Notes under the pieces: model-generated | What the model was told of the DNA's origin: nothing | The model's database searches: none | The model's input: the letters and a program-made list of their open reading frames with translations, nothing else | Source: Sphingomonas sp. ATCC 31555 | GTDB taxonomy: Bacteria; Pseudomonadota; Alphaproteobacteria; Sphingomonadales; Sphingomonadaceae | NCBI RefSeq assembly: GCF_000282895.1 | Contig: NZ_ALBQ01000014.1 | Coordinates: 62,001 to 126,000 of the forward strand | Reading direction: 5' to 3' | Length of the DNA stretch: 64,000 nt | Made by a program: the position numbers and the translations under genes | Part shown: positions 52,501 through 63,324 of the stretch, piece by piece | How the letters are laid out: each line of letters starts with the position of its first letter | How positions within the stretch are numbered: position 1 is the first letter of the stretch

Positions 52501-53096
52501 TTGGGCATCACTCCCCGGGTGCGCAAATAGTCGAGAATCGGCAGCAGCGGCATGCCGAGGATGGTGAAATGGCTGCCCTCGGTGCGGTGGAACAGCTGCA
52601 CGCCAGGTCCTTCGATCCGGAAGCAGCCGACACAGCCGGCGATGGCGGGCCATTCCAGGTCGAGATAGGATTCGATGAACGCCTCGCTCAGCGGCCGGAC
52701 GTGGAGTCGCGCCCGATCGACGTGCCGCCAGACCGGGCGGCCGCCCTCGGCGATCACCGCGGCGCTGTAGATGTCGTGGGTCTTGCCCGACATGCGCTGA
52801 AGATGGTCGCGCGCCTGTTCGCGGCTCTCGGGCTTGTCGAGCAAGCTGCCATCGTCGAGCGCGACCAGCGAATCGCCGCCGAGCACCAGCGCCTGCGGCG
52901 CCATGCGTGAGACCTTGAGCGCCTTGAGCTCGGCGAGCGCGTCGGCAAGGTCACGGGGAGACGTGCCCTCGGCAAGCAGCGATGTTTTGGCGCTGGCCTC
53001 GTCGACCAGGGCGGGCAGCGCCTCGTGCGCCACCCCGGCGGCATCGAGCATCGCCCGGCGCGACGCGCTCTGGGAAGCGAGAACCAGAGTCGGCAT
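52497..53096 (-). CDS. Maf family nucleotide pyrophosphatase
   Basis: A 199-residue Maf protein (VLASQSASRRAMLDAAG, GGDSLVALDDGSLLDKP, HFTILGMPLLPIL). Maf-type enzymes hydrolyse modified or non-canonical NTPs. This one reads as the YceF-like alphaproteobacterial branch. Its start overlaps the upstream ppsR stop (TAATG). Part of the conserved ppsR-maf-aroE-coaE-dnaQ block beside the origin. Confidence 0.92.
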   Translation of the reverse strand: MPTLVLASQSASRRAMLDAAGVAHEALPALVDEASAKTSLLAEGTSPRDLADALAELKALKVSRMAPQALVLGGDSLVALDDGSLLDKPESREQARDHLQRMSGKTHDIYSAAVIAEGGRPVWRHVDRARLHVRPLSEAFIESYLDLEWPAIAGCVGCFRIEGPGVQLFHRTEGSHFTILGMPLLPILDYLRTRGVMPK

Positions 53097-53911
53097 TATC
53101 GGCGTTCCATTTCACGGTCGTTGCACAGCTGGATGATCGCGGCGGCGGTTTCCTCGATCGAGCGGCGGGTAACGTCGATCACCGGCCAGCCATTGTCGGC
53201 AAACATGCGGCGCGCAAAGGCGATCTCGCGCTGCACCGCTTCCTGGTCGACATAGTCGGTCTCCGGCGCCTGGTTGAGCGAGAGCAGCCGGTTGCGGCGG
53301 ATCTGGACCAGCCGATCGGCGCTGGTCGTCAGCCCGACGATCAGCGGCCGCTGGAGCTGGAACAGCTTGGCCGGCGGCGGCGATTCCACCACCACGGGAA
53401 TGTTCGACACCTTGTAGCCGCGATTGGCGAGATAGATCGAGGTCGGCGTCTTCGACGAGCGCGACACACCTGCGAGCAGGATGTCGCTCTCCTCCCAATC
53501 CTCCCAGCCGATGCCGTCGTCATGCGCGATGGTGAACTGGATCGCATCGACGCGGGCGAAATAGGCGGCGTCGAGCATGTGCTGGCGCCCCGGCCGTGCC
53601 TTGGCCTCCTGGCCGAGCAGGTTGGAGAGCGCATGGCTCACCTGGTCGAGCGGCGCGATCGCCGGCAGCCCCAGCGCGCGGCACCGCGTCTCGAGCATGC
53701 GGCGGATGTCGCGATTGACCAGGGTGTAGATCACCAGACCCGGGTTCTGCGCGATCTCCTGCAGGATGCGCTCGAGATGCGCCTCGCTGCGCACCATCGG
53801 CCAGAAATGGCGCAGCGGCTCGACATCGTCGAACTGCGCCAGTGCCGCCTTGGCGATGTTTTCCAGCGTCTCCCCGGTGGAGTCCGAGAGCAGGTGCAGG
53901 TGCAGCCGCAT
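53096..53911 (-). CDS. ppsR: PpsR/PDRP, pyruvate phosphate dikinase or PEP synthase regulatory protein
   Basis: A 271-residue bifunctional kinase/pyrophosphorylase of the DUF299 family (MRLHLHLLSDSTGETLENIA, P-loop AGVSRSSKTPTSIYLANRGY, SLNQAPETDYVDQEAVQREI). It switches PPDK or PEP synthase on and off by ADP-dependent threonine phosphorylation. In Caulobacter this gene flanks the chromosomal origin on the side opposite hemE. The start at 53911 is preferred over a Met at 53935 (MHRSVPSL). Confidence 0.93.
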   Translation of the reverse strand: MRLHLHLLSDSTGETLENIAKAALAQFDDVEPLRHFWPMVRSEAHLERILQEIAQNPGLVIYTLVNRDIRRMLETRCRALGLPAIAPLDQVSHALSNLLGQEAKARPGRQHMLDAAYFARVDAIQFTIAHDDGIGWEDWEESDILLAGVSRSSKTPTSIYLANRGYKVSNIPVVVESPPPAKLFQLQRPLIVGLTTSADRLVQIRRNRLLSLNQAPETDYVDQEAVQREIAFARRMFADNGWPVIDVTRRSIEETAAAIIQLCNDREMERR

Positions 53912-54220
53912 CAGGCTGGGGACCGATCTGTGCATAACATGGCGAACAAGCGGTAGCGTAACCGCGGCATCCGGCCAACCCGCCGAGATTCGGGAAAGCC
54001 CGTGTGATTCGTCCACAGCGGCATCCCCAGCTTGTGCTTTCCATTCACAGGCTGTGAGTCTTGTGGACAGATTTCCCGAATCCGTGCGATTCCGGATGGC
54101 CGCAGGAGTCAAATTGTTGGCAACTGACTCACATCGCCATAAGCCCCGGCTTTCACCGGCCAACAGACTCCAACATCCTGAGAATCGAATCTTCTAGTAG
54201 TGGGATCCCGGCTCTGACTC
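53912..54220. other. Candidate chromosomal replication origin (oriC)
   Basis: This roughly 300-base region lies between divergent ppsR and hemE, the position of the origin in Caulobacter and relatives. It has a consensus DnaA box (TGTGCATAA, i.e. TTATGCACA reversed, at 53929-53937) and weaker look-alikes: TCGTCCACA (54009-54017), CCATTCACA (54041-54049), TGTGGACAG (54062-54070) and TGACTCACA (54125-54133). Eleven GANTC sites fall within 53987-54220, about one being expected by chance. An IHF-like TCAANNNNTTG lies at 54109-54119. There is no TTAA, so no CtrA site. Three parS sites and parA lie downstream. Confidence 0.75.
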
Positions 54221-55245
54221 TTCGCGCTTCCAAGCCGCTGCTCGCGACCCTGACAGGGACTCGCCAGCCCGTTCCGCCCGTCTGGCTCATGCGCCAGGCC
54301 GGTCGATACCTGCCCGAATACCGTGCGCTCCGTGCCGAAAAGGGCGGATTCCTGGCACTCGCGATGGATTCCGAGTCTGCCGCGGAAATCACGTTGCAGC
54401 CGATCCGCCGCTTCGGCATGGACGGCGCCATCCTGTTTTCCGACATCCTGGTGGTGCCGATGGCGCTCGGCCAGAAGCTCTGGTTCGAGACGGGCGAAGG
54501 CCCCAGACTCGCGCCGACGGTGACCGCGCGCGACGTGCTCGACGGCTTCGATGCCGATTCCAGCGTCCTGGAGCCCATCTACGGCACGATAAGGCGGGTG
54601 AAGGCGGCCCTGGACCCCCAGACCACCTTCCTGGGCTTTGCGGGCTCTCCCTGGACCGTGGCGACGTACATGATCGCGGGACAGGGCAGCCGTGAACAGG
54701 CCGAGGCGCGCCGCCTCGCCTATCGCGACCAGGGCCTGATGCAGGCGCTGGTCGATCGCATCGCCGACCAGACCATCGCCTATTTGCGCGCCCAGGCGGA
54801 AGCCGGCGTGGAGGCTGTGCAGCTGTTCGACAGCTGGTCGGGCAGCCTCAGCCCCGCCCAGTTCGAACGTTGGGTAATCGCCCCCAACGCCCGGATCGCG
54901 GCAGCGGTTCGGGATCTGGTGCCCGTGATTGGATTCCCGAAGGGGGCAGGGGGCAAACTCGCCGCCTATGCCCGCGAAACCGGAGTGGATGCGATCGGAC
55001 TCGACGAGACGGCCGATCCCGAATGGGCCAACGCGGTGCTGCCCGAAGGGCTGCCGGTGCAGGGCAATCTCGATCCGCTGGCGCTGATCACGGGCGGCGC
55101 GGTGCTCGACAGCGCGATCGACCGGATCCTCGCGGCCTTTCCGGCGCGGCCGCATGTGTTCAACCTGGGCCACGGCATCCTGCCCGACACGCCGATCGCG
55201 CATGTCGAGCAGCTGCTGGCCCGCGTGCGGGGGACGGCGGAATGA
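54214..55245 (+). CDS. hemE: Uroporphyrinogen decarboxylase
   Basis: A HemE of about 344 residues for the conversion of uroporphyrinogen III to coproporphyrinogen III. Family motifs PVPPVWLMRQAGRYLPEYR, FSDILVVPMALG, FAGSPWTVATYM, LFDSWSG and FNLGHGILPDTP are intact. The start is a problem. Relatives begin a few residues before KPLLATL, but no ATG, GTG or TTG is in frame there, only a CTG at 54214 or an ATC at 54205. The only standard in-frame start is a TTG at 54061, which would add 51 residues encoded within the origin. Rare start codon or sequence error near 54200. It overlaps hemJ by four bases. Confidence 0.85.
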   Translation: MTLRASKPLLATLTGTRQPVPPVWLMRQAGRYLPEYRALRAEKGGFLALAMDSESAAEITLQPIRRFGMDGAILFSDILVVPMALGQKLWFETGEGPRLAPTVTARDVLDGFDADSSVLEPIYGTIRRVKAALDPQTTFLGFAGSPWTVATYMIAGQGSREQAEARRLAYRDQGLMQALVDRIADQTIAYLRAQAEAGVEAVQLFDSWSGSLSPAQFERWVIAPNARIAAAVRDLVPVIGFPKGAGGKLAAYARETGVDAIGLDETADPEWANAVLPEGLPVQGNLDPLALITGGAVLDSAIDRILAAFPARPHVFNLGHGILPDTPIAHVEQLLARVRGTAE

Positions 55246-60787: not shown

Positions 60788-60803
60788 TGTTCCACGTGGA
60801 ACG
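60788..60803. repeat. parS-like site 1
   Basis: TGTTCCACGTGGAACG lies directly between mnmE and mnmG. It is palindromic except at the outermost base and matches the ParB-binding parS consensus (TGTTNCACGTGNAACA) at all but the last position. Confidence 0.85.
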
Positions 60804-62704: not shown

Positions 62705-63324
62705 CCGAGGATGAGGCACGTGCCTGGGTCCGCGAGCGGTTTGGTGTTTCACGTGAAACACTATTGGCACGATTCGGCGATATTCTCGTAGAGGGAGCAG
62801 AGCACCAGAACCTGATCGCACGCTCTACCTTACCGGCGCTTTGGGGGCGCCACCTGGCGGATTCGGCGCAGCTTGTGCTGCTTGCGACCGGAGCGCGCGA
62901 GGGCGTGTGGCTAGATGTAGGTAGCGGGGCAGGCCTCCCTGGTATCGTCGTGGCGATCCTTACCGAGCGTCCAATGGTGTTGGTGGAGCCGCGCGCCAAA
63001 CGGGTGGCCTTTCTTCGCGAGTGCGCCGAGACTTTGGGATTGGGCGATCGCGTGCGCGTCGTGCAGAGCAAGGTCGAAGCGTTCCGCCCCGATTCACCTG
63101 TAGCCGTCGTATCGGCGCGCGCGGTCGCGGAATTGTCAGTGCTGTTGTTATCCACAGTGTCGTGCACAGATTCGTCCACGATATGGGTGCTGCCAAAAGG
63201 ACGAAGCGCGCATTCGGAGGTGGATGCCGCGCGTGCGAAATGGCAAGGTCGGTTCCACGTGGAACCCAGCATCACGCAGCCGGACTCGGGCATCGTGGTC
63301 GCAACACAGATAGGCGCCAGATGA
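62701..63324 (+). CDS. rsmG: RsmG, 16S rRNA guanine-N7 methyltransferase
   Basis: A 207-residue SAM methyltransferase (GidB) for m7G527 of 16S rRNA, with the SAM loop [16 protein letters not shown] and N-terminal HLADSAQLV. The gene contains two parS-like sites at the DNA level: one encodes GVSRETL (about residues 15-21), the other encodes part of RFHVEPS near the C-terminus. It overlaps both mnmG and parA (ATGA each). Confidence 0.95.
62745..62760. repeat. parS site 2 (perfect consensus)
   Basis: TGTTTCACGTGAAACA is a perfect 16-base palindrome identical to the consensus parS bound by ParB. It lies inside the rsmG coding region, 560-576 bases before the parA start. Confidence 0.96.
63251..63266. 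repeat. parS-like site 3
   Basis: GGTTCCACGTGGAACC is a perfect 16-base palindrome with the parS core (GTTCCACGTGGAAC) and only the outermost pair altered. It lies in the 3' end of rsmG, 55 bases before parA. Confidence 0.85.

Follow-up and report, generated by a model that had tools for sequence, protein, structure and literature searches.

Eleven CcrM (GANTC) sites cluster in the ppsR–hemE gap of Sphingomonas sp. ATCC 31555, a predicted chromosome origin at which DNA methylation may gate initiation

The gap between ppsR and hemE in Sphingomonas sp. ATCC 31555 is almost certainly the DnaA-dependent origin of the chromosome, and eleven GANTC sites, the target of the methylase CcrM, lie in a 234-bp stretch there (53987–54220; coordinates are those of the window, the whole 64,000-nucleotide stretch of DNA that was analysed, and features cited without a strand are unstranded). 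We put the probability that this cluster makes the origin responsive to CcrM methylation, and so gates initiation, at about 45%; the arrangement suggests that DNA methylation helps hold copying to once per cycle. The location of the origin at hemE is not new, as a hemE-adjacent origin has already been predicted for Sphingomonadaceae (in Sphingopyxis granuli TFA, with DoriC predictions cited alongside; PMC4741004). What is new is the density of GANTC and its conservation: the portions of the literature covered by our search contained no description of GANTC density at a Sphingomonas origin.

Results

Genes, parS sites and GC skew around the gap

The gap is bounded on the left by ppsR, which encodes a kinase/pyrophosphorylase (53096..53911, minus strand; PF03618, E = 1e-92), and on the right by the uroporphyrinogen decarboxylase gene hemE (54214..55245, plus strand; PF01208, E = 3e-109). 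According to a survey of start codons, hemE probably begins with the CTG at 54214–54216. In 21 of the 141 loci surveyed, the conserved MRQAGR is not preceded by any ATG, GTG or TTG at a distance of 40–130 bases; the window itself accounts for three of the 21 and near relatives for the others. In five loci (L123, L124, L127, L128 and L029) the frame is interrupted by a stop at most 21 bases upstream of the CTG. Against a CTG start, the near relatives L003, L120 and L122 have a GTG in the same frame, 15 bases ahead of the CTG.

By Pfam, the gene order runs from ppsR and hemE to rho, mnmE, mnmG and rsmG. The open frame after rsmG encodes a 17-letter protein stretch that, by eye, resembles the Walker sequence of ParA. 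These are the neighbours, rho and mnmE-mnmG-rsmG-parA, that the first-pass annotation had invoked for a strong origin call, together with three parS sites. Of the three parS-like sequences recovered, GTTTCACGTGAAAC at 62746..62759 is exact to the searched pattern, and the other two, both GTTCCACGTGGAAC (60789..60802 and 63252..63265), have two mismatches to it. The ppsR motif lies upstream of hemE in 78 of 81 loci, in all 29 loci of the genus and in 24 of 27 loci from other families. The dnaA gene is on a different contig from the gap; according to PMC8116508, proximity of dnaA to the origin is not a conserved feature of Sphingomonadales.

The GC-skew check that had been proposed for the origin call also supports it. 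On the 271,648-bp contig that carries the gap, the minimum of the cumulative skew is at 118,698, 2.5 kb off the cluster (115,987–116,220 on the contig). In a complete relative of the same genus (G102; 3,605,070 bp), which was sampled in 19 spaced stretches of 12 kb (a resolution of about 180 kb, with individual stretches being noisy), the minimum of the centred cumulative skew is the stretch from 2,520,001, beside the homologous gap at 2,487,999, and the maximum is at 720,001, half a chromosome off. The strong origin call is thus backed by gene order, parS sites, the skew of the contig and the complete relative.

Number and density of GANTC sites

A recount returned the eleven GANTC sites reported for 53987–54220, with starts at 53987, 54006, 54056, 54078, 54088, 54106, 54126, 54166, 54182, 54187 and 54216. 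Their placement exactly in the ppsR–hemE gap holds for ten of them, and fails for the site at 54216, which overlaps the probable hemE start codon. Once the gap and the first part of hemE beside it are set aside, no 234 bp of the window contain more than four sites, and the window total of 182, compared to 288 expected, shows that GANTC is depleted overall. The cluster is likewise the maximum of a genome sample of 611,324 bases (the 271,648-bp contig and 17 stretches from other contigs, about 15% of 4.05 Mb), in which GANTC averages 1.74 per kb (0.41 per 234 bp) and any unconnected cluster has at most six sites. Markov models that took their composition from the 288-bp piece covering the gap gave a mean of 1.65 and a maximum of 8 GANTC at order 1 and a mean of 2.29 and a maximum of 9 at order 2, with 0 of 5000 draws reaching at least 11 in either case.

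The second densest cluster of the sample (C14:220489, or L099 from 14489; six sites in 234 bp) lies shortly before an open frame or inside its beginning; by eye, this frame appears to be Ppx/GppA exopolyphosphatase-like.

The spacing of the sites in the window has a resultant R of 0.71 at 10.0 bp (the best period of 9–12 bp, p = 0.024). Helical phasing at the origin was rejected as a general property, because the statistic summed over ten representative loci was 13.3 at 10.0 bp compared to 10 expected, with about 5.6 coming from the window itself. An Rfam search of 53700–54500 with E up to 1 gave no match to an RNA element, and a generic scan of 53880–54300, which does not model alphaproteobacterial promoters, gave no sigma-70 consensus promoter or terminator.

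DnaA boxes and the anatomy of the gap

The consensus DnaA box annotated at 53929–53937 is present and perfect (TTATGCACA, minus strand, found by a box scan); in an alignment, most relatives of the genus have a TGTGGANAA-type sequence in its place. The several degenerate boxes that accompanied it in the first-pass annotation amount to five with two mismatches, two of which overlap. Together with the perfect box they make six compared to 1.7 expected (p about 0.02), and at no more than one mismatch the perfect box is alone (p = 0.13).

Several GANTC sites touch such elements. In what follows, their occurrence refers to an alignment of 25 sequences of the genus, in which two are duplicates of others across the gap. 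The core site at 54006 (22/25) abuts a degenerate DnaA box found by the box scan, the two forming GATTCGTCCACA (54006..54017, plus strand) in which the site adjoins TCGTCCACA. With the preceding T, 54005–54011 read TGATTCG, a form of the extended GcrA motif (PMC7987155). At 54041..54070, alignments and the box scan place twin inverted DnaA boxes (about ATCCACAGNCTGTGGANAA) in the relatives. In the clade of the window the second half of this element is TGTGAGTCT or TGTGAGTCC, which puts a GANTC inside the box, and the box-like TTGTGGACAG follows just past the GANTC-bearing half. At 54056–54060, the clade has apparently swapped the second DnaA box of the relatives' pair for a GANTC.

Further to the right, the core site at 54078..54082 (CGAATC) is invariant (25/25). 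The conserved block GAGTCAAATTGTTGGCAA at 54106..54123 superimposes a core GANTC (22/25) on either an IHF-like site, GTCAA-N4-TTG, or the −35 element of a promoter. The IHF-like sequence is one letter off what we take to be the IHF consensus, and sequences of the GTCAA-N4-TTGG type are present in 54 of 109 loci, 37 times with a GANTC. The alignment shows another conserved block, CATAAGCCCC, at 54138..54147. It is followed by a three-GANTC stretch (54166..54199) in which the AT content of the gap peaks (54170–54199, 60% AT, with two GANTC sites) and which is a candidate unwinding element. Two core sites are found here, at 54166 (18/25) and at 54182 (22/25, or 25/25 if a GANTC near this position is accepted).

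Conservation of GANTC across relatives

Three sets of loci were compared: (i) the best 80 of 583 HemE-matched relatives, mostly with Sphingomonadales titles and a few given as other taxa or by class only, a set that was not chosen by the gap because its members were picked as best HemE matches; (ii) 27 loci from other families, which are the best HemE matches outside the family (146 genomes matched of 190 searched); and (iii) 29 loci of the genus, which are the best DNA matches to the gap and hence biased towards likeness, and of which L121, L122 and L142 repeat the gaps of L004, L003 and L005 from the 81-locus set. In 80 loci including the window, the ratio of GANTC density in the gap to that in the flanks is 6.9, compared to 0.7–3.9 for seven control pentamers made of the same letters (the ratios exclude the partial locus L020). 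The ratio is 6.7 in the 76 loci outside the clade of the window, 5.7 in the 27 loci of other families (controls 0.7–1.9) and 6.5 in the 29 loci of the genus (controls 0.3–5.0). The highest control of the genus, AGNCT, may partly owe its value to the conserved AGNCTGTGG of DnaA boxes. As the flanks are mostly coding, part of every such ratio is the general intergenic excess of GANTC (PMC3973325).

The gap is denser in GANTC than the flank in 80 of 81 loci, in 29 of 29 of the genus and in 27 of 27 of other families, and the excess is significant relative to the gap's own composition in 40 of 81, 25 of 29 and 7 of 27, respectively. The best count per 234 bp is graded across the 80 loci and ranges from 0 to 12: the nearest three (L002–L004) have 12, 11 and 11 sites, L021 and L029 have 10, L062 has 9, L036 and L071 have 8, and the others, apart from L014, have 2–7. 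L014, with none, has no ppsR motif upstream, and L039, likewise without the motif, nevertheless has six. The first-pass annotation had made its call depend on conservation of the cluster, and relatives do show the enrichment of the gap. This enrichment is widespread, but the very high count is limited to a few lineages. A locus from another family of the class, L159, has 10 GANTC per 234 bp compared to 0.22 per 234 bp in its flank.

Within the genus alignment, the five core positions persist at 61–67% aligned identity. Five sites are nearly confined to the clade of the window (53987 with 6/25; 54056, 54126, 54187 and 54216 with 8/25 each), and 54088 is intermediate (13/25). The ten gap sites of the window have a mean retention of 0.44 in the 17 sequences outside the clade, compared to 0.22 for other pentamers of the gap (p = 0.03; p = 0.04 relative to GC-matched pentamers). 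Selection on the fixed GANTC letters was not detected among the six distinct sequences of the clade, where 3 of 40 of these letters vary compared to 37 of 226 others (p = 0.23).

CtrA, CcrM, GcrA and SeqA

As reported earlier, the gap has no TTAA half-site: the 430 bp that precede the HemE match are free of it, and the full CtrA site TTAA-N7-TTAA is absent from the gap, where the best match has three mismatches. Full sites (N6–7) are found within 700 bp upstream of hemE in one of 109 loci, and any TTAA in 41 of 81 loci and in 2 of 29 of the genus. The conclusion previously drawn, that CtrA cannot bind, is correct as to the missing motif but too strong, since CtrA is encoded (416 bits compared to a cut-off of 350) and the test concerns the TTAA motif alone. 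Work cited in PMC8116508, according to which loss of ctrA does not harm the growth of Sphingomonas melonis, is in line with a CtrA-independent origin. A trade of CtrA sites for GANTC sites was considered and rejected as specific: TTAA and GANTC counts correlate with rho = −0.20 over 109 loci, and other AT-rich tetramers behave alike (−0.21 to −0.28).

The genome encodes one CcrM-like methylase (PF01555 and RAMA), and each of 59 genomes of the family, taken at one per genus, has a CcrM. GcrA is matched in two complementary halves on two contigs (G000:C59:17-223 and G000:C31:11946-12179). As these are 16 bases and, by locus length, at most 171 bases from contig ends, gcrA was probably broken by the assembly. 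PF03925, the SeqA family, has no match in the genome, and the control search matches in E. coli only; we know of no other reader of hemimethylated DNA here.

The region upstream of ccrM was surveyed in the best-matching 30 of 59 loci (L201–L230), over about 360 bp around the estimated start. It contains 4–10 GANTC sites (6.4 on average); 16 of the 30 loci have a perfect DnaA box there, one a full CtrA site, 21 a TTAA and 12 TTAACCAT, presumably a CtrA half-site. Given the occurrence of these last two motifs, CtrA may control ccrM. The sites are spaced by 29–30 and then 19–21 bp in 22 of 30 loci, with a phasing peak at 9.75–10 bp that is no independent evidence because the spacing is inherited. 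The 300 bp upstream of the organism's own ccrM (L092) have five GANTC sites, two perfect DnaA boxes and no TTAA. Since the upstream region of ccrM is dense too, GANTC density alone is no marker of an origin; the origin and the methylase may be parts of one circuit.

Discussion

We propose the following model for the role of the cluster. After firing, both daughter origins would be hemimethylated at the 10–11 clustered GANTC sites, several of which touch DnaA-like and IHF-like sites. In the hemimethylated state, the loading of DnaA (or IHF) would be weaker, or a reader of hemimethylation would keep the origin shut, and the block would be lifted when CcrM remethylates the sites late in the cycle. 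From the sequence, we infer the methylation in vivo, its effect on DnaA binding and its timing. The model is supported by (i) the position of GANTC on conserved DnaA-like and IHF-like elements, (ii) the equal number of sites at E. coli oriC, with 11 GATC in 232 bp, and (iii) the enrichment of the gap over its flanks and the retention of the gap sites. Against it, loss of CcrM leaves the control of initiation in Caulobacter intact (PMC3973325), the genome has no SeqA match, many relatives have just 2–5 GANTC, and the AGNCT control reaches 5.0 compared to 6.5 for GANTC in the 29 loci of the genus. Furthermore, the GANTC letters are no more conserved than others within the clade, the phasing is not general, and the array upstream of ccrM is also dense.

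The main rival to gating is GcrA-dependent transcription of hemE. The gap would still be an origin, but GANTC would serve transcription, with GcrA and sigma-70 reading the methylated sites at the hemE and divergent ppsR promoters and replication being affected indirectly. GcrA is indeed encoded, albeit as two halves on two contigs; the core site at 54005–54011 has the extended GcrA form (PMC7987155); a GAGTCAA-N2-TGTTGGCA ... CATAAG block looks by eye like a possible promoter; Caulobacter cannot replicate without transcription from inside Cori (PMC4287350); and the dense GANTC upstream of ccrM are at a promoter as well. However, the extended motif YGAKTCK fits 3 of the 11 sites compared to 78 of 182 GANTC in the window (raw counts), the sites are spread across the whole gap instead of being gathered at one promoter, and the generic sigma-70 scan, which does not model alphaproteobacterial promoters, found none. 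PMC7987155 itself, though, saw no preference for the extended motif in Brevundimonas. On balance, we regard a purely transcriptional role as somewhat unlikely.

Alternatively, the cluster might be passive, either because GANTC is tolerated between genes but kept out of coding sequence or because adenine methylation eases the opening of the duplex, and have no role in timing. It is true that, in Alphaproteobacteria, coding DNA is somewhat poor and intergenic DNA somewhat rich in GANTC (PMC3973325), that GANTC density varies widely among relatives and that conservation within the clade is not significant. A passive cluster is nevertheless unlikely, as it would have to accommodate the large excess of 11 sites compared to at most 6 elsewhere in the 611-kb sample, the persistence of five core positions at an aligned identity of 61–67%, and control motifs that are not enriched alike. 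Finally, that the gap is merely a conserved divergent promoter region and no origin is highly improbable: a second skew dip of the contig near 176 kb is nearly as low as the minimum (−1460 compared to −1547), and skew was read on 7% of the organism's own genome, which is split into 62 contigs, but the skew of its contig and of the complete relative, the parS sites and par genes close by, the synteny with Cori (PMC1914354) and the DoriC predictions cited in PMC4741004 all speak for an origin.

Gating by methylation could be extended to a more general, and rather doubtful, proposition: that sphingomonads restrict their main DnaA origin to one firing per cycle with a CcrM-based lock, the counterpart of Dam/SeqA. 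This lock would be independent of CtrA, would employ a hemimethylation reader of its own or methyl-sensitive DnaA or IHF, and would have the same logic wired into ccrM. The upstream region of ccrM has a GANTC array in the 30 genera surveyed; 16 of them also have a perfect DnaA box there, and one a full CtrA site. The finding bears on the means of once-per-cycle control in Alphaproteobacteria with a dispensable CtrA. The CcrM sites of the gap described here equal the Dam sites of E. coli oriC in number, and there is no canonical CtrA site and no SeqA. Such a naturally occurring origin, together with relatives whose counts run from 0 to 12 in 234 bp, puts the question within direct reach of experiment. 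It also cautions that the dispensability of CcrM for initiation, found in Caulobacter, may not hold elsewhere.

The predicted oriC of Sphingopyxis granuli TFA (DoriC) is likewise beside hemE, and the words GANTC and CtrA do not occur in the main text of the paper that describes it (PMC4741004). The Cori origin of Caulobacter crescentus, between hemE and a COG1806 gene, shares with the Sphingomonas gap its boundary genes, DnaA boxes and an IHF-like site. Several GANTC motifs are present at Cori as well (PMC3973325), compared to 11 in 234 bp here, but Cori has five CtrA sites (PMC1914354), and none of that form is found in the Sphingomonas gap. At ori2 of Agrobacterium, a repABC origin under CcrM and GcrA, hemimethylation of GANTC has been proposed to limit refiring (PMC11514494). 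That origin is a RepC-dependent secondary one with three GANTC over the predicted ori2, whereas the Sphingomonas gap is a DnaA origin. The nearest formal parallel is oriC of E. coli, where Dam acts with SeqA, whereas Sphingomonas has CcrM, which targets GANTC, and no SeqA match; CcrM and Dam have different evolutionary histories (PMC3973325). The parallel lies in number, as the annotated oriC has, by our count, 11 GATC in its 232 bp, compared to the 11 GANTC in 234 bp here. It extends to placement: some GATC sites of E. coli touch DnaA boxes, and GANTC sites of the Sphingomonas gap touch DnaA-like boxes.
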